DNA of 64,000 nt from Rugalucina vietnamica (lineage: Eukaryota > Mollusca > Bivalvia > Lucinida > Lucinidae): NCBI GenBank assembly GCA_964017185.1, contig OZ024874.1:55283356-55347355 (forward strand). The letters are read 5' to 3'. How positions within the stretch are numbered: position 1 is the stretch's first letter; the number at the start of each line of letters is the position of its first letter. Positions 22,050-52,100 of the stretch are shown here, in pieces. The notes beneath the pieces are model-generated. The model was not told the DNA's origin and ran no database searches. It saw only the letters and a list, made by a program, of their open reading frames with translations. Made by a program: the position numbers and the translations under genes.

Positions 22050-25000
22050 TCAGTTAAACTTGCACTTCGAGAAATCCATCTCCGGGTGGGCCTTCATAAA
22101 CCTGTAATCACAGTATAGAAATTAGAAATTAAAACAGTGTTTTCTGAGGAAAACTATGTTCCCCCCAACTGTTTAGTAATTGAAGTGTAGTTACCTTGTG
22201 ATATGAAGTTTTTTTATGGAAGACACCATGCCCATCTTGTTCTGTATGGTGTGGTAGTTTAAACATGTTTTGGACCCTGTCTAAAATTAGGTCACGATCA
22301 CCAAATTCTTATAAACTCACAACAATGCTTCTGTGCAAGTTTGGTTAAAATCCATCAATTGGTTTACAAGTTATCGCGTCCGAAAGGCTTATTTCAACAG
22401 TTATTAACTAGTGACCTTGGAAATTAGGTCAAGGTCACCAAAATCTTATCAACTCTAAGCCTCCTCCCAACAATGCTTCTGTGCAAGTTTGGTCAAAATC
22501 CATCAATTAGTTTACAAGATATCGCGTTAGAAAGACTAATTTCAACAGTTTTTGACTAGTGACCTTGGAAATTAGGTCAAGATCACCAAAATCTTATCAA
22601 CTCTGAGCCTCCTCCCAACAATGTTTCTGTGCAAGTTTGGTCAAAATCCATCAATTAGTTTACCGTTTATCGTATCGGAAAAACTAATTTCAACAGTTTT
22701 TATGGACTTGTGACCTTGAAAATTAGGTCAAGGTCATCCAAATCTAACCAACTCTGAGTCTCCTCCCAACAATGCTTCTGTGCAAGTTTGGTCAAAATCC
22801 ATCAATTGGTTTACAAGATATTGCATTGGAAAGACTAATTTCATCATTTTTTATGGACTCATGACCTTGAAAATTAGGTCAAGGTCATCAAAATCTAATC
22901 AACTCTGAGACTCCTCCCAACAATGCTTCTGTGCAAGTTCGGTCAAAATCTATCAATTGGTTTACAAGATATTGCGTTGGAAAGACTAATTTCAACATTT
23001 TTTATGGACTTGTGACCTTGAAAATTAGGTCAAGGTCACCAAAATCTAATCAACTCTGAGACTCCTCCCAACAATGCTTCTGTGCAAGTTCGGTCAAAAT
23101 CCTTCAATTGGTTTACAAGATATTGCGTTGGAAAGACTAATTTCAACAGTTTTTATGAACTCGTGACCTTGAAAATTAGGTCAAGGTCACCAAAATCTAA
23201 TCAACTCTGAGCCTCCTCCCAACAATGCTCTTGTGCAAGTTTGGTCAAAATCCATTCATTTGTTCAGAAGATATCGCGTCGGAAATCCTAATTTGATCTG
23301 TTTTCATGGGCTGGTGACCTTGAAAATGAGGTCAAGGTCACCAAAATCTAATCAACTCCTCCTCCCAACCATGTATCTATGCAAGTTTGGTCAAAATCCA
23401 TCCACTGATTCAAAAGAAATCGCGTCGGAAAGAAGCTACGCGGACGCTGATGCCGACGCCGACGGGATCCGCACCAAAAAACAATAAACACCTTCGGTTG
23501 GGGGACATAATTCCAGCTTTTAGGTTATTAAACCCTTTTCATGCTCAACTCTACTATTTTACTCATCATAAATGCTGCAATCCCAACAATAAATGGCACT
23601 AATATTTACGGGCAGGAATAATACTTGAAGTCCATTCAAATAAACCTTGAAAGAGAATTTTCTGAACAGAAATGGAATCTGCAAACTCATAAGTGTTAGT
23701 TTGATCTGTATTAAATGATCTGTGTTGTGAGAAAGCAAACAATGTAGTTTCCGAACAAGTCCAGCACAAACCCAGCTGTACAAGCATAGAAGATGGCTAG
23801 AGACAGAAAATTTTGGATTTAGAAAGTTGAGGTACTATCCGCGTAGCGAAAACAAAGGCGCTGCACCTTTGTTTTTGCATATGCAAAATGTTGGTTTTCT
23901 CATGATTTCTGCAAAAACTTTACTAACAAAATTAGAAGCCACATTACATGCTTTTCCCTCTATTCTAGTAAAACTGATACTCTGACTGCCGTTTTGAAAC
24001 TATAGGAGTTGAAACAGAAGCTTGGAAAATGATTTTTTTTTTTCAGGCTTATACACTAAACCAAACCACTACTAGCATTGAAAATCATTCCCAAAATACA
24101 CATGCAAGATGAATTGCATCTAGAAAACTTAAAACAGAAGAAAAGGCAAAGATGATACAAATCAGGCTGACTATAGGTCAAGCTTAGTAAGCATAGGCAT
24201 ATCTCAGATTTACCATTACAGAATAAATACCTGCATCTAATTGATTGTATTATGTTATTGACAATTTTGTTACAGTCAGCCATAACTGAATTATATCTAT
24301 AAATTGGATATCAAAACTCTGATTAAGCATGCATTTTAGAAGATAAACGGGAGGCTAAACTGAAACAGATTAAGCCAAGCATGCAGGGTAGTTACAACAG
24401 CCCGTCTTACTTATCCATCATCTCTTGCTTTTTCATATCATCTGAGGTCGGCAAACCCTGCTCTTTCCGTCGCTGGTCGTACATCATTTTCTCAACCATA
24501 GATCTTGTCTCCCCGTCAAGGTCAGATAACTGATAAATCATGATAGTGGTTAAAACAGTAAGAGTAAGCAAAAGCTAGTGCACACTCTGACCTTCACCTT
24601 GAAGACAGGGTCAAGGCCTGTTGCTCAAGAACTTACAGAAGGTGGGTCAAAATTCATTTTCTTCCATCTTTTCATTTTTTTTTTCCAAAAGTTCATCACA
24701 TTTTTTATAATATTATCAAATTCAAAGATATTTACTTTTCTATCAAAATTCAAATGTATACAAATATTCTTTTCTGCATTTTAAAGACTAGCAGACTAAG
24801 TATCCAAAAATAGCAGTACTGTTCTTCAGTTCTTGAGCAACATGTTCATAGCAACACGAAAGCAAAGTCAGGGTCAGCTAAAGTAAGTCAAGGTCACAGC
24901 AAGGTCAGTGTATGTCTTACTTTTCCATCATCTCTTTTTTCTTCTTGTCCTCTGATGTGGGAAGTCCCATTTCTCGCTGTCGTTGATCGTACATCATCTT

Positions 25001-28000
25001 TTCGACAATGCCACGAGTTTCCCCATCAAGGTCAGATAACTTTAAAATTATTGTAGTACTTAAGATTAGCTGAAATCTTATTGACTTAAGTTTTGTCTTA
25101 ATTTGCTAGCTGAAAAATATTATGTCAACTTTCTTCAGATTCATGTTCAAATACACAGCTTTCAAAACAAAGCATAGTTCACAATGTCTTTCAAAGATTT
25201 TATCCTTCAGGCTGATATGAAGGCCTTTGTTTCTCTTTGCTTCTGTAGTGTATGCTTGCCAGGTTCTAAATCCAAAGCAAAAGTTGTTACTATGTATCTT
25301 CAATGGCTGTACATTGTGGTTTTTGTCTGACCTGGTCCAAGATCAGGATTACAGATTTTTTCCTGCAAGTTTCATACATATATGAGCTACCGCATAAGAA
25401 AATCAACAATCTGCACATGCAAAAACAAAGCCGCAGATCAGCTGTGCAGTGACTGTACAGCTGAACAGCGCCTTTGTTTTTGCTACATGAATAGTACAAT
25501 CCCTCTTCTCAATAAATCCAAACTTTCAAGCTTCTAGCCTGCTTCTGTGACTGTACATGCCGATTTGAGTGGGGCCGGGTCAGAAACCAAAATTGTTGGT
25601 TTTCTCATGCAGAGGCTCATACTTTACCTGTAAATCCTGAAAAAGGTTATGCTCATATTACTTCCATACAAAGCATACGTACCTTGGAATTTTCTGGTTG
25701 GACTTTCTTGGTGTTAATCTCGGGATCTGTTGTGACTATTTTACTCCACCACTCCATCTTGTTTACCTGTGTGAAGCAATTTACTGCGCTATCAATGATT
25801 CACACATCAGGGGCAGATACAGGATTTCTGAATAGGGGGTTCCAATGTAGAAAAGGTGGGTTTGTTAGCCTTATTTTACACAAATTTCTTGAAATTCTTC
25901 ATGAAAAATGAAATAATTTGGGCCCAGATGGCGGTTCAAGTGAACCCCCACTAACTCTGCCAGTCCACCACAGAACATTGTACAAGACTCGCTGACCTTT
26001 TATAGCATCGCCATATTCCACTTAAGACTAGAATTCGATGACTATAACAGGATTAATAGAGACATTTTAAATAATATGAAACTTGATGCAAATCTCAGCA
26101 CCCTGCACTTCATGATCATCAACCCATATGGAGACCGCTAGACAATGGCCAGTAAATACTGTTATTACTCATTAATTGTAAATGAGCAGCGTCATGAGAA
26201 AACCAACATTTTGCATATGAGAAAACAAAGGTGCACATCAGCTTTGCAGTGACTGCGAAGCTGATCAGCGCCTTTGTTTTCACTATGTGGATAGTACAAT
26301 TCCTCTACTTGCTAAATCCAAAATGTTCAACTCTAGCCATCTTTTGTGCTTGTACAGCCTGATTTATGTCGGACCTGGTTGGAAACCACATTGTTGGTTT
26401 TCTCATGAGGGGGCTCTAATAAAATTTGTTTAAAATGCAACTTAACAACCCTGTTGAATACTTTCAACTGATCATATCCATTATATTTCTACTGGAAATT
26501 CAAATTAGAAATTCTGTTCAGATACCTTCTGTATGGCTATTTGTACAATTTTCCTATCTTCTATGGTCCATGTTGATTCTTCTACTTTGATATCATGTTG
26601 CAAATCACCATCTATGATAGGTGGGTGGCCCTTTAAACCAGCTTTTAATCGCTGAAAATGGTTAACATTGAAAATTCTCACTTTGTTCCTGTTTATTCAT
26701 ATGATTTGTTGCAAGTTTATCAGTAATCAGGTGGTCAGCCAGGTGGTTATAAGCTTTGCCTGGAGGCACAAGCAGCCATCTGTTAATAACGGCCCAAATG
26801 TGCAGGGGCCTGGTATAATGAGACATCCTCATTTGCCAGTTAGTATGCACATTCACTACATCTGATCAGCTCTCTTGATATTTGCCTCCTAGATAGTGCC
26901 TGTGGCTTTGTGTTGTTAAAACTTGTCAGAAGCTGCATATAAACTTAAATTCTAGGATGAAATTGATTTGTCTCTCTTACCTTCTTTTCTAAGCTTATCA
27001 CCAGGTCTTTGCTTTTGATTGGAAATGATACATTGAATGGAATTCTGATCTGAAAGACAAGATAGGAAAATACTGGTAACACAGTAATTGTTGAAGGTTA
27101 CTGGTCAAAACCAAATAAGCACTCTTAAACTATAATTGAGCCTTCAAATGAGAAAACCAACAATCTGGGGCCAGTTGTTCAAAACTAACGACGTCGTTAG
27201 TTAACGATTCGTTAAAATTTCAAACATTAATACTACAAATACACTGTCATTTTTTGTTGAAAAAATGTGAGAATCCTTTGCTCTGCAAAGGATTCTCACA
27301 TTTTTTCAACAAAAAATAACAGTGTATTTGTTACTTTAGCTGATATTTGCTTGACAAATTTATGTCTTAACGATATCGTTAAGCTAACGATGCTTTGAAC
27401 AACTGGGCCCTGGGTATCTGTCCCAGTCCAACAAAAAACAAGTTGTACACCCAAATGGCAAAGAAGCAGGCTAGAAGCTTGAAATTTCTTATTTAGAAAG
27501 ATGAGACATTGTAGTATCAATGGATGATCTATGGGTGCCTTTGCTTTTTCCTATGCATATTGTTGGGTGGCTTAATTAGAATTGCTTTCAGGTAACCATC
27601 AACTCTAAAAAGATGGAAACGCAAACATTGTGTCTGATATCTTAATGGAATAACCTGCATATGAGCCGCGCCATGAGAAAACCAGATTTTTGCCTAGGCG
27701 AAAACAAAGGCGCAGATCAGCTTCGCAGTAACTTTGTTTTCGCTTCACAGATAGTACAATTAGTCTTCTTCTTAAATTCGAAATTTCAAGCTTCAAACCT
27801 GTTTCTGTGACTGTACATGCTGGTTTGTGTCAGACCTGGTCGGAAACTTGGAAGACCATTTTTTCTCGCGTCACGGCTCATTATCTTAATGGAACTGACA
27901 TCACTTGAAATGTAATTCAACTGAAATAGCGTAGACTAGTAAAGACAGTAAAACAATACCTCAATTTCTTCTAGTGTTTGCGTCCAGCTATAGTTTTCAT

Positions 28001-46100: not shown

Positions 46101-49100
46101 GCCACCAATCCAGACATGCTCATTGACAGTGACACATTAAACCTCAATTCCTGATGAAAGAGAGTGCCCTCAACAAGTAAATCTTATAAATTTGTATTTG
46201 CAAAAAAACACTGTCTAAAACCATGGGGAGGGGGGGGGGGGTGTAGTAGAATGACAGACCTATTTTAGAGCAGTATACAGAGCTGACTTGTATACTCAAT
46301 CTAGGACTTGATCGCGGACATTGAGGGTCAGGTCCTCGGTCCTAGATGTAAAGCAGAATGTCATTCTTCAATAATATTAAATAAAAAAAAAAAAAAAAAA
46401 AAAATGTCCTATATTTTGACCTCCAGCCCCACCCTCAGGGCACGGACCCTAGAGTCTAATGTCATTATGAACAGGGCAAACCTTATAGTGTACCTTTGGT
46501 GCAAGTACGAATCATTTCTGAACATGGTGGTAAAGAAAAGTAAAGAAATACATTTTTTTAAAGAAGTTCTAGATTTTGACCTCTAGCCCCACCCCCCGCA
46601 CATGGACCCTAGTGTCTGAACCTTACATGGTACCTATGGTCTAAGTATGAATGCTTTCTGATAAAACTTTGTGGATGTCAAGAAAATAGACTTACAGAAA
46701 ATATTTATTATGATATTTATCATATTATAAATAAGTCCTAGATTTTGACCTATAGCCTCACCCCACTGGAGATCATACCGAGCATGGAGTATGAAAGCAA
46801 ACCCTATAGGGTATCTATGAACTAAATAAGAATACATCCCTATGATTGTTTGTTAAGATATGGACTTATAGAAGAAATTGTAAACAGCATATTTTAAAGG
46901 TGACCTAGATTTTGACCTCCAGCCCTATCCCTGGGGATGGGCCCTGGGGTCCGAACTCATGGAAACAAAGCAAACCCTATAGGGTACCTATGGTCCAAAT
47001 ATGAATGGCTTCTGACCATTGGTTCATGAGATATACACCTCTAGAGAAACTTTAACCAAAACTTTGACGTAAATTCCACGAACGTTCCGGAATTACGAAC
47101 GAAGAAATGAACTAACTAACTAACATACGAACGGACGAACGGAAAAGCGAAAGCTATATACCCGTCGGCATAAATGCCGGGGGTATAATGATGAAGTGGA
47201 GATTAAAAGTTTAATGCATTGAACAAAAACATCCATTTATAGACATTATTTCTAAAGCTATATACATTAATGCATGTGCATGTACTACAAACAGCTCAAC
47301 CTCATTATAATGCTATCTTTGGGGTCCATGGAAACAGACCCTGTTCAAAGTAAAACCTTGTTATAATGAGGTTATTCAAAATCGACATATGACAAAATAA
47401 TCAATTTGGGAGCCATTGCATGGCCAAACTGCACTATAGACTATAGTGAGTAACGTTAAAATGAAGTTGAACTGTAACTGTATGTGTATATTCAGTGACA
47501 ATAAAAGCACTGTAGGTGCAAAATACTGCAAATACATTTTTATAAGAAAAATAATAATAATACTCATTTATTTACAGGCTGAAATACACAGTGACATGTA
47601 AGGCAACTCTAAGAAAAAAAACATAGTTTTGCAACACATGTATGCAATCATATCATGGTAATGTATGAAGTTACTATCATTTTTCTTTCTTGTATTGACA
47701 CAATTTGACTTGGTTGAACACCTTGAAAATACTTCCTCCGGCCTATGAGGCCCAAATTTCTGTTTTTAACATTGCTCTAAGGCTTTGCTCAGAGTGAAAC
47801 TGACAATGCACCTATCAGTATTTTCCTCCAGAGGGGGAGTAATGGAAATATTGAGGAGATTACAATTTTACTGTTATAACAGAGTATATAGCAAAGATGG
47901 CCAACCTTTGGGATAATTTTAACCTATATGAGGAGAATTAGACCCTAGTTTTTCAAAATTATCTAAATCCCTTTGGTAATTCCATCCCTTCCCCTCTGCA
48001 GAAAAATATGCAAGATCATAAACTTGCAATTACAAATCAACAATTCTTAGTAATATGTTGTGGGCTTGATGTTTCTCTAAATGTGTCTTACACCCATTTC
48101 AAGTTATTCATCTTCTTGGTGGCAAGGGCAGTGAAAAATATCATGTCTCCTCAGTGCCTTCACATCGCAACAATATTTGAGATGTGTCCAGTGCTCACAC
48201 TCTGGGTAATCACACTTGCCCCAAGTTGCAAATTCAATAATATATCCCCCAGCTACAGCTTTCTCTGGGTGGTATTGCTTACACACACAGCAAACTTCCT
48301 GCATTGGCACTTCCTCTTCAACAACAGTTTCAACCACCGCAGGTATAACCCCATGTGGTTCTTGTTTTACAGACTTTTTACCAGCCTTTCCCTCTTTTTC
48401 TTCTGATTCTGCCACAGCTTCCTCTTGCTGTTCTACATTATCTTGTTGTTGTTGATCTACCTGTTGATCTGCACCCTCCTGTTCATTACTTATACTTTCA
48501 ATTTGCTCCTCTACAACTTGATCCTCCACTACCTGCTCTTCCACAATCTGCTGTTCAACTCTGCTAGTATTGATTATATTTCCTGACTCATCAATCTGAA
48601 CAGTCATGACAGTTTGGTAGGGATACTGATCTGCAGTCTCATGCTGCTCTTGCACTGCCTGTGAATGTCCTGGTTGTTCATGAACGAGCATTTCATATGA
48701 ATGTTCTTTCACTGGAGAGTCAACCAGTTTGAACTTCTTTTGATTATACTCAAAGTACAGTCTTGATGTTTCAAGTTCTTCCCTTAAGGATGACTCAAAC
48801 TGAAGTCTACTCGTCTGTGCTTCATAATCATCTATATCATGTTCATCACTAGATAACATTTCATCAATTTCTGAGTCAGTACTCTCTGATTCATACTCTG
48901 ACGATTCCTCTGTAGATGAATCCCTTTTTCTTGACCGCCTACCCCGTTTTGATTTTTTCTCTTTCTCCTTCTTCTGTTTCTTAACTTTCAGCCTCATTGT
49001 TGGTGGTGCTCTGTAAGAAGTACTCGGCAAAGCTGGTTCAACTTTCTGCTTCTTTACTTTAGGTGTTGTTGACTTCCTACGATTACTGTAATTGTATCTG

Positions 49101-52100
49101 TACACTGTCTTTTCTTTCTTTCGTTTCTTTGTCTTGCCTCCAAATGCTTCTGATTCCATGTCTTCAAAGTCATCATCATCTTGATCCGATATCTCTTGAC
49201 GAGGTTTGACAACTTTTCTTCTCACTTGGTGTCGAGGAGACTGCCACTTTACCGCAATTGTCTCTTTTGGTTTCTTAACTGGGATATTCCTCTTTGGGAA
49301 CAGCACTGGTTTAGACAGATCAATTCTTGAATCCATTTCCGTTGGGCAAAAAGGATAGATTCCTACATTTTTGAAGAAGGCCTTCAACACTGTTGAGTTG
49401 ATTGCTCTCTTGTAAGCCTTACAAGCAACAACACAGACACTTGAATGAATAGACTTGTCCAGTTCACTTTCCAGAAAATCGTCGCTTTCTTCATTGAACC
49501 TGGGAACAAAGTCCTTGAATATTCCAAAGCTCATGTCGGCCGTAGCTTGTGACACATTGGGTGGAAGTGGGAACATATGGACATACTGCTTCTTATACAG
49601 CTCAATCATTGCGGGGGAAATGTGTGTACGATGTCCATCATACAGTAACAGAATAGGCTGTGCCTCCTCTTTCCTTTCAATGAACTTCAGAAAGTGGTTT
49701 TCAAGATACAGTTGAAACACACTACTGTTGGTGGTGCCTTCATCGCTACACGTCGCCCCAGTTCCTGGAGAACAGTCCTCAATTGATTCCGAGCTGACCG
49801 TTTTCCCTGGAAACACAAAAAATCCTGGAAGTCGGGCACCTGTAGAGTTCCCACAAACAATCATTGTTAACGTTGGTCCAATAACCTTATTGTTCTTGTC
49901 ACATCTAACATCTTTCCAGGAGATAACTTCTGGAGGGGATTTGTCAGTGTTTATACATACTTCTTCAATTACAAACAAAGAGTCAGGGCTTTTTGTTAGG
50001 TTATATTTCTTCAACGTGCTTTGAAGTTGGTGGTAATATGTTGTCAAGGCCTCAATTGTGGTAGCCTTTGACGAATGTGATCTTGCCCCAGCTAACCTTC
50101 TAGACACTAAACCTGGCCACCTTGACATAAAACTATAATACCACTGATGGGTAAACGTATCTGATGGATCTCTTTTCCCAAGAACAACAGCAAAATCTGT
50201 GGCCAGATTGATAACATCCGCTCGAGAAAAGCTGTACCCAAAGTCAGTCAACAGTTGCAGATATTCCACTAATTTATTCTCCTCCTTCATTCCTAGCACT
50301 GGGGCGGGACCAGAGCGTGTTTTCTGCAGCCCAACTTTTCCCTTGATTCTGTCCCGTAGTGTTGATTCGGGCACTCCATATTCCCGAGCAGCTCTCTGTA
50401 CTGGAGTATTCTTTTCCTTGACAGCTTTGAAGGCTTTGGCAAGATTTTCTTGTGAGTATCCGCGGTATTTCTTTCCTGGACTATAGGGCATCTGAAACAA
50501 GGGTATATAATTTTAAGAGTATAGCAATATGGGGCCAGTTGTTCAGAATTAACGATGTCGTTAGATAACTATTCGTTAAAATTTCAAATGGCAATAATAC
50601 AAATACACTGTTATTTTTTGTTGAAAAAATGTGAGAATCCTTTGCAATGCAAAGGATTCTCACATTTTATCAACAACAAAAAACAGTGTATTTGTTATGT
50701 AGTTGGCATTTACTTAACGGGTTGAGATCTTAACAATGACGTTAAGCTAATAAAGTTTTGAACAACTGGCCCATGATGTATAATATAAACACATACAAGA
50801 ACAGTTCTTGATGTGAAGGATTGAGGCATTTAAAAATGGCTCAAATAATGATTTTGTAAAAATAGCAAAGTACATCATACATATCAATGACACTATCTTA
50901 AAATCATACGCCACGATGATGAAACATGCAAAAGTTTTTTTTTCACATTTCAAAATGTTTTATGTCAGCTGAACAGGTACAGATAGATTACTTTACAAAG
51001 TACATGTAAGTTGACGTAATTACTAAAATTTTATACTATTCTATCAAACTTGTTGAATGGACACAAAAAATTGGAATTACTAAACTTGAGAAACTGAAAA
51101 TTTCAACAATCTTGGCCAACTGACAAATACATTAACAATAAATTGCTTTCAACATATTTTTTCTCCAATAGTGTAGTAGAGGATCACTTACCTAGATAAA
51201 ATTTTAAGGGTCTGTGATCTTCTAAGACACTGCCAGCTGACATCAAAAACAAATTGAAGATGCGATTTTTTAAAACATCGAACCAAATCCTGCTCAGCAA
51301 GAACATGAAAGGTATTATTTTTCATTATTTCAATATTACTCATCAATAGCACATCACTATTTGAGCTGTCACATGAGAAAACAAATAATTTGCATCTGCA
51401 AAAACAAAGGCGCAGGACCAGCCTCGCGGTAACTGCGAAGCCGATCAGCGCCATTGTTTTCACTACACAAATAGTGCAATCCATGTTCTTCTTAAGTCCC
51501 AAATTTCAAGCTTCTAGCTGTCTTCTATGACTGTACAGCCTGGTTTGTGTCAGACCTGGTCGGAAACCCAAATTGTTGGTTTTCTCATGCACAGGCTCAT
51601 TTGTTTTTCTCTAACTGCAATTCAGCTGGGTTACATATTCAGAGCAAATTGTTTGTTTTTTGCATTGCTGATTAATATCAACTGATAAGCCCTATTTATA
51701 ACTAAACAACTATGATCCCTGTCTGCTGCAACTGCTTATCAGCATGAAACGTGTTATAGACCAATGCAACTACTGTGCTCTTTACTTAGATATTTACTTT
51801 CTCCACTGGACCAGAAAATCTCCCCTGACAGTTGCGTGCAAAATTGTGCTTTTCTTTCTTCAGATACTGAGTAGATCAATTTCTGATCATCATCCTAGGT
51901 ATGAGGTGGGTTGCTAAATTTTAAATTTAGCAAAATGGAGGAAAAACATTTGGAATGGGCCATTAAAACAATTTACAAGAAGCTACATAGAGGTAAAGTA
52001 ACTGACGGTACCCACAATGAGCACCCAAGACTGCACAGTCATCCCTGTTCTACCTTGGGTCACCTTTCCAACCACTAACCAAGCTGGACATTGCTTAACT

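Follow-up and report, generated by a model that had tools for sequence, protein, structure and literature searches.

A tandemly duplicated penultimate exon in the NUDC gene of Rugalucina vietnamica with the geometry of mutually exclusive splicing

The minus strand of a 64,000-nucleotide stretch of the genome of the lucinid bivalve Rugalucina vietnamica (assembly GCA_964017185.1, contig OZ024874.1, positions 55,283,356 to 55,347,355; hereafter the window, in whose coordinates all positions are given) contains a NUDC gene that extends from 52427 to 22050 and has ten coding exons, one of which is present twice. The two copies, named 9a and 9b, lie next to each other upstream of the last exon. We hold with good confidence that they derive from an old tandem duplication of the penultimate exon and that one copy is spliced into each productive mRNA. 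Judged from the sequence, the animal very probably has two NUDC isoforms, and one-at-a-time use of the exons, as we infer it, is the best explanation of the arrangement.

Layout and reading frames of the exon pair

The exon borders of NUDC were set by hand after a tblastn search with a human NUDC sequence. Spliced through 9b, the gene encodes a protein of 331 residues in which the Nudc_N (PF14050), NuDC (PF16273) and CS (PF04969) domains all score above the Pfam cut-offs, and the three domains together with the conserved C-terminus identify the product as a NUDC orthologue. Exons 9a and 9b are each 119 nt long, are entered in phase 0 and left in phase 2, and have GT-AG borders. Their peptides agree in 30 of the 39 full codons and share the split Lys codon, which gives 31 identities over 40 residues, and the DNA is identical at 87 of 119 positions. 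The coordinates, lengths, phases, borders and peptide identity given in a preliminary description of this stretch are exact. The two are homologous neighbours, equal in length and phase and compatible in their splice sites, the arrangement that defines candidate mutually exclusive exons (MXEs). Length, frame, similarity and splice sites are the properties from which MXEs are predicted (PMC5740500), and on these sequence properties the NUDC pair would be predicted as such. An in-frame TAA lies inside each donor (AAG TAA; 24407-24409 and 24917-24919), directly after 9b and 9a, so that retention of either downstream intron would terminate the protein just past the exon.

The order 8-9a-10 and the order 8-9b-10 each yield a full-length NUDC of 331 residues with the same C-terminal end, and the two isoforms differ at nine residues (285, 286, 296, 297, 299, 305, 307, 310 and 314). 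When both copies are joined (8-9a-9b-10), a TGA comes into frame at nucleotides 44-46 of 9b, about codon 15, where the preliminary description had placed it, and 73 nt short of the last junction. The usual limit for nonsense-mediated decay is 50-55 nt upstream of the last junction; the TGA lies beyond it, and decay of the double-inclusion product is therefore expected. When both copies are skipped (8-10), the last exon is misframed, as had likewise been foreseen, into a 15-residue altered tail that stops within that exon, and the conserved C-terminus is lost. Joint inclusion and joint skipping both break the protein, as is the case for MXEs. Lengths, phases, splice sites and frame effects thus bear out the proposed geometry of MXEs arising by tandem duplication. 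The proposal of two isoforms gains support from this geometry, from the frame consequences and from the long-term coding constraint on both copies. As for the further statement that the exons can be used only singly, it applies to the making of full-length protein, whereas for splicing itself we infer it. Alternative polyadenylation after 9a was considered and rejected, as the 391-nt intron between the two exons contains neither AATAAA nor ATTAAA.

Age of the duplication and constraint on both copies

Searching the whole genome (1.09 Gb) with the DNA of 9b returned 9b itself and 9a only (two of two candidates; E = 3.6e-11 for 9a). The corresponding protein search returned 9b, 9a (E = 8.9e-14), exon 10 and a weak match on another contig, C3 (E = 0.077). 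These whole-genome E-values rule out a chance similarity of the two exons and, because the pair is found at one genome location only, it is neither a repeat nor a retrocopy. The same DNA and protein searches of the whole genome recovered no retrocopies that record spliced transcripts.

The 32 nucleotide differences between 9a and 9b are split 6/5/21 over codon positions 1/2/3. The proportion of synonymous sites that differ (pS) is 0.87 (18.5/21.3 sites), a value that is saturated and beyond correction, and the corresponding nonsynonymous proportion (pN) is 0.14. Neutral drift of one copy was simulated in 5000 runs per starting copy, with an assumed transition weight of 2. From either copy, none of the 5000 runs stayed open with nine or fewer residue changes; about 20 residue changes accumulated, and 71-75% of the runs acquired a stop. 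The pattern of pS and pN and the simulations together point to an old tandem exon duplication of which both copies were kept coding. They indicate protein-level selection on both copies, and maintenance of both exons as coding sequence for most of a long time. Compared with the human sequence, 9a is identical at 28 and 9b at 31 of 40 residues. Seven of the differing sites can be polarised; the change lies with 9a at five of them and with 9b at two, a split that does not clearly point to decay.

When the flanks are compared without gaps, similarity extends only about 24-30 nt upstream of the exons and 7-10 nt downstream. An assembly or haplotype duplication is judged unlikely, since the introns fail to align in this comparison. 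A search for homologues of the exon pair elsewhere gave 70 pattern matches in a genome contig collection and five in viral contigs, none of which was confirmed. The contig C3 carries a NUDC-related gene with a segment similar to the duplicated one (45-48% over 31 residues). This homologous segment (MSDLDQEAQAKIEEMMYNDRQKKMGLPQTHE; L020:4482-4574) is the single strong match in 10 kb. The coordinates of the exon pair, its neighbours and the elements discussed below are collected in Table 1.

Table 1. Exons, introns and candidate regulatory elements around the duplicated NUDC exon (window coordinates)
Feature	Position	Strand	Remarks
NUDC exon 8 (VNKMEWW...PENSK)	25683-25766	-	phase 0 end; donor AAG/gtacgt
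Exon 9a, 119 nt	24921-25039	-	acceptor aaag/ (A at -3); donor AAA/gtaaga; last codon split (K)
9a/9b (middle) intron, 391 nt	24530-24920	-	genome search: matches itself only
Inverted repeat arm 1, TGTTGCTCAAGAACT	24828-24842	-	perfect 15 bp; downgraded by genomic control
Inverted repeat arm 2, AGTTCTTGAGCAACA	24619-24633	-	perfect 15 bp; downgraded by genomic control
Docking-like site	24586-24597	-	complementary to nt 4-15 in 9b (11/12), almost as much to the equivalent bases in 9a
Exon 9b, 119 nt	24411-24529	-	acceptor tcag/; donor TAA/gtaaga; last codon split (K)
TGCATG (RBFOX-type)	24380-24385	-	26 nt below 9b donor
TGCATG	24328-24333	-	78 nt below 9b donor
TGCATG	24101-24106	-	305 nt below 9b donor
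Exon 10, coding part and stop	22050-22101	-	requires phase 2 input (two bases from preceding exon)

Exclusivity and the possible control of exon choice

In the mechanism that we propose, the penultimate coding exon of NUDC would have been duplicated in tandem long ago, giving two alternative exons, and each productive mRNA would receive either 9a or 9b. With its better acceptor, 9b would be the default form, and 9a, with the acceptor AAAG, would be used in particular cells or stages. More tentatively, an RBFOX-family protein acting on the TGCATG motifs below 9b may tip the choice, as at unc-32 7a/7b. The two isoforms would share the Hsp90 co-chaperone core, with Leu at 279, and would differ in the C-terminal region (residues 285-314), perhaps with different clients or partners as a result.

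The suggestion of RBFOX control is drawn from the motifs below 9b and from a parallel in Caenorhabditis elegans. RBFOX-regulated exons have UGCAUG within a few hundred nucleotides, as 9b does (24385, 24333 and 24106), and two or more TGCATG occur in only 13 of 15840 overlapping 100-nt single-strand windows (both strands, 200 kb of genome). An RBFOX-like RNA recognition motif (RRM) has two matches on C3, of 76% over 38 residues and 67% over 33. TGCATG is bound by RBFOX proteins in metazoans, and at unc-32 a weak exon 7a is followed by a readily used 7b, with UGCAUG in the intron past 7b; UNC-75 represses 7b there, and UNC-75 and RBFOX proteins activate 7a-8 splicing (PMC3585155). The NUDC pair is like 7a/7b in its tandem exons, its weaker upstream copy and the UGCAUG below the second exon. 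It differs in the gene concerned, and regulation by RBFOX proteins and UNC-75 was demonstrated in vivo at unc-32 (PMC3585155), whereas regulator and usage are putative for NUDC. UGCAUG and Fox2 also affect the choice between the adjacent exons 8 and 9 of FGFR2; the element lies above the second exon in that gene and represses it (PMC2880598), whereas the close sites of NUDC lie below 9b. By analogy with unc-32, the regulated form would be 9a, with 9b used by default, while direct enhancement of 9b by RBFOX is also possible. A full, ancient RBFOX-controlled switch, with one exon used in RBFOX-positive cells (neurons or muscle), the second in other cells, and a client surface that varies by cell type as a result, is on present evidence unlikely.

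Several points weigh against one-at-a-time use and against the control proposed for it. The pair falls outside the class of MXEs that are kept apart by steric exclusion or by U2/U12 incompatibility: the middle intron measures 391 nt, has GT-AG borders and lacks U12-type donors. Exclusion is therefore not hard-wired by either route, and the frame alone would impose it. Many adjacent similar human exons are not spliced in a mutually exclusive manner (PMC5740500). Eight of the ten NUDC acceptors end in CAG and one in TAG; 9a, alone with AAG, lacks the YAG seen at the other nine and may be little used. The neutral simulation informs on most of the divergence and not on very recent disuse. With regard to RBFOX, two further TGCATG are found in intron 8 above 9a (25611 and 25421), the two motifs near 9b have common neighbouring letters and may not be independent, and the better RRM match on C3 (76%) has a TGA within the alignment, perhaps at an exon end. 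The motif was first spotted by eye, after which seven motif families were counted on four flanks, and it is for this reason given modest weight. TGTNTG, the one CELF-type pattern counted, has no match in the four 150-nt flanks, and exon choice at unc-32 depends chiefly on the CELF protein UNC-75 (PMC3585155).

It is possible, though doubtful, that both exons are used and that splicing is non-exclusive, with an abundant double-inclusion mRNA that is cleared by nonsense-mediated decay, perhaps tuning the level of NUDC. The position of the TGA, at 73 nt from the last junction, agrees with such clearance, and across a 391-nt intron with ordinary GT-AG borders the joining of 9a to 9b is physically possible. 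By contrast, most such clusters in one survey (294 of 377) are without joining reads. At the protein level, this alternative is compatible with the use of one copy in each productive mRNA.

We regard it as improbable that 9a is a decaying relic, formerly used, whose acceptor weakened recently and which leaves nearly all NUDC to be made via 9b. Acceptor strength was judged by eye. Besides being the sole AAG among the ten, the acceptor of 9a has a pyrimidine fraction of 0.53, the lowest of the gene and equal to that of exons 4 and 8. The slight excess of changes on the 9a side (five versus two) also favours decay, and pseudogenic exons have been tied to 0.4-1.0% of mammalian genes (PMC2718932). 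Nevertheless, the 119 nt of 9a are free of stops, frameshifts and border losses, the codon-position differences point to selection, and its donor, AAA/gtaaga, is good, the donors of 9a and 9b being alike (gtaaga). The AG at -21 of 9a is not peculiar either, given the AG at -19 of exon 8 (four acceptors were examined).

We give still less credence to a choice set by RNA pairing, either through a 15-bp fold of the middle intron or through an intron site docking on one exon start. A search for docking sequences, proposed in the preliminary description, yielded two candidates, an inverted repeat of 15 bp and a short stretch complementary to the exon starts, neither of which is convincing. The repeat is perfect, and none of 4000 dinucleotide shuffles of the middle intron gives an inverted repeat of at least 14 (spacer at least 3). 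Of the three genome occurrences of its arm, two lie in this intron. As a special device, however, it is weakened by the genomic control, in which 28 of 500 same-length segments hold a perfect repeat of at least 15, the figure for the window being 9 of 163 (spacer at least 20). Several of the control arms recur and look like interspersed repeats, and at least six of the 28 control repeats share a single arm (of the GCGAAAACAAAG type or close to it), which puts the non-repeat share below 5.6%. A count of the arm with two mismatches (4699 versus 1496 for the reversed pattern) was left unused: the reversed pattern includes a possibly depleted CG, although a diverged repeat family is possible.

The other signs of pairing are similarly mixed. 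The minimum-energy fold engages the 9a donor with a stretch about 28 nt above 9b, but the fold of the whole intron has a z of only -1.7. The site at 24597-24586 complements the start of 9b and nearly that of 9a, but its TGACCTTGA-type sequence is common in the region (array at 22316-23433). Exact complements of 10-11 nt link the middle intron with intron 9 (for example, 24612-24603 with 22282-22273); these and the docking-like site were counted without a control. The helix scan, ungapped, thresholded and likewise without control, returned chiefly repeat-like pairs. In annotated fly and human MXE clusters, internal introns pair no more than controls, whereas outer introns do pair with inner ones (PMC6071210). 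Structural control of the exon choice is unproven.

The array at 22316-23433 lies in the intron between 9b and exon 10 and consists of 7.5 copies of a 151-nt unit with TGACCTTGA/TCAAGGTCA. An apparent interspersed palindromic repeat of the AAAACAAAGGCGC type is found at 25410-25483 in intron 8 and at 23849-23887 in intron 9, and the two copies are mutually complementary. Flanking 9a and 9b, such copies might cause both exons to be looped out or promote circular RNA; the complementarity of introns 8 and 9 was set aside, as it involves stretches resembling a recurrent palindrome present at several control loci. Further upstream, the 22.7-kb intron 1 contains an open frame of 802 residues on the minus strand (48104-50512), whose C-terminal half is acidic and rich in Lys and whose end is rich in Cys. 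We take it to resemble a transposase of the pogo/CENPB type, and it is possibly a domesticated transposase.

Parallels and function of the duplicated segment

NUDC is not known for alternative C-termini. Among the titles and abstract openings of the literature matches listed, in a search that took in only a minority of subscription journals, no report of duplicated or mutually exclusive NUDC exons was found. Two papers, one on heat stress in potato and one on cold in carp, mention both NUDC and mutually exclusive exons. One listed match concerns spliced isoforms of the NUDC relative NudCD1 (PMC5636827), and the main texts of PMC5740500 and PMC9741552 contain no instance of 'nudc'. In other respects, the pair is like human tandem duplicated exon pairs, which are homologous, similar in length, in the same frame, old, and different mostly by conservative changes; in 60% of the human clusters the lengths are not divisible by three (PMC9741552, PMC5740500). 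It is unlike the human sets of tandem duplicated exons and MXEs in that NUDC goes unmentioned in the main texts on them, and in the animal lineage. Among molluscs, exon 10 of AOX in Crassostrea virginica is likewise a late, tandem duplicated exon with one copy more conserved and the other variant (PMC5589949). There, alternative use was demonstrated and is stress-dependent, and the duplication concerns the terminal exon (3' alternative splicing; PMC5589949), whereas the NUDC pair is internal and followed by a common last exon. The oyster gene thus provides a mollusc precedent for the alternative use of a duplicated exon (PMC5589949). The NUDC pair would be a known type of device in a surprising gene, probably giving two NUDC isoforms by exclusive use of the copies.

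Both exons begin with LSDLDGETR, and their nine differences are scattered and mostly conservative; on sequence grounds, this start and these changes are compatible with two working forms, as described for human tandem duplicated exon pairs (PMC9741552). Leu279 of the human protein aligns to the fourth residue of 9a and 9b, which is Leu in both. In a PDB search, NudC chains reached only the beginning of the segment, the best of them, 1wfi, extending to query residue 36. This solved chain has the same SKLSDLDSETRSMV start as the duplicated exon. In human NudC, L279P impairs the chaperone function of NudC and Hsp90, and its overexpression lowers LIS1 and filamin A (PMC8273881). Those studies concern an overexpressed point mutation and no isoforms (PMC8273881), whereas the NUDC gene described here has two versions of the exon.

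NUDC is a conserved helper of dynein/LIS1 and of Hsp90, and two versions of its L279 segment have been kept in this lineage. If the RBFOX-controlled switch were true, a co-chaperone of Hsp90, LIS1 and dynein would alter its client surface from one cell type to another in these animals. A lineage with two versions would constitute a natural experiment on the residues that set client choice, and the set of genes that have duplicated alternative exons would come to include a housekeeping co-chaperone.

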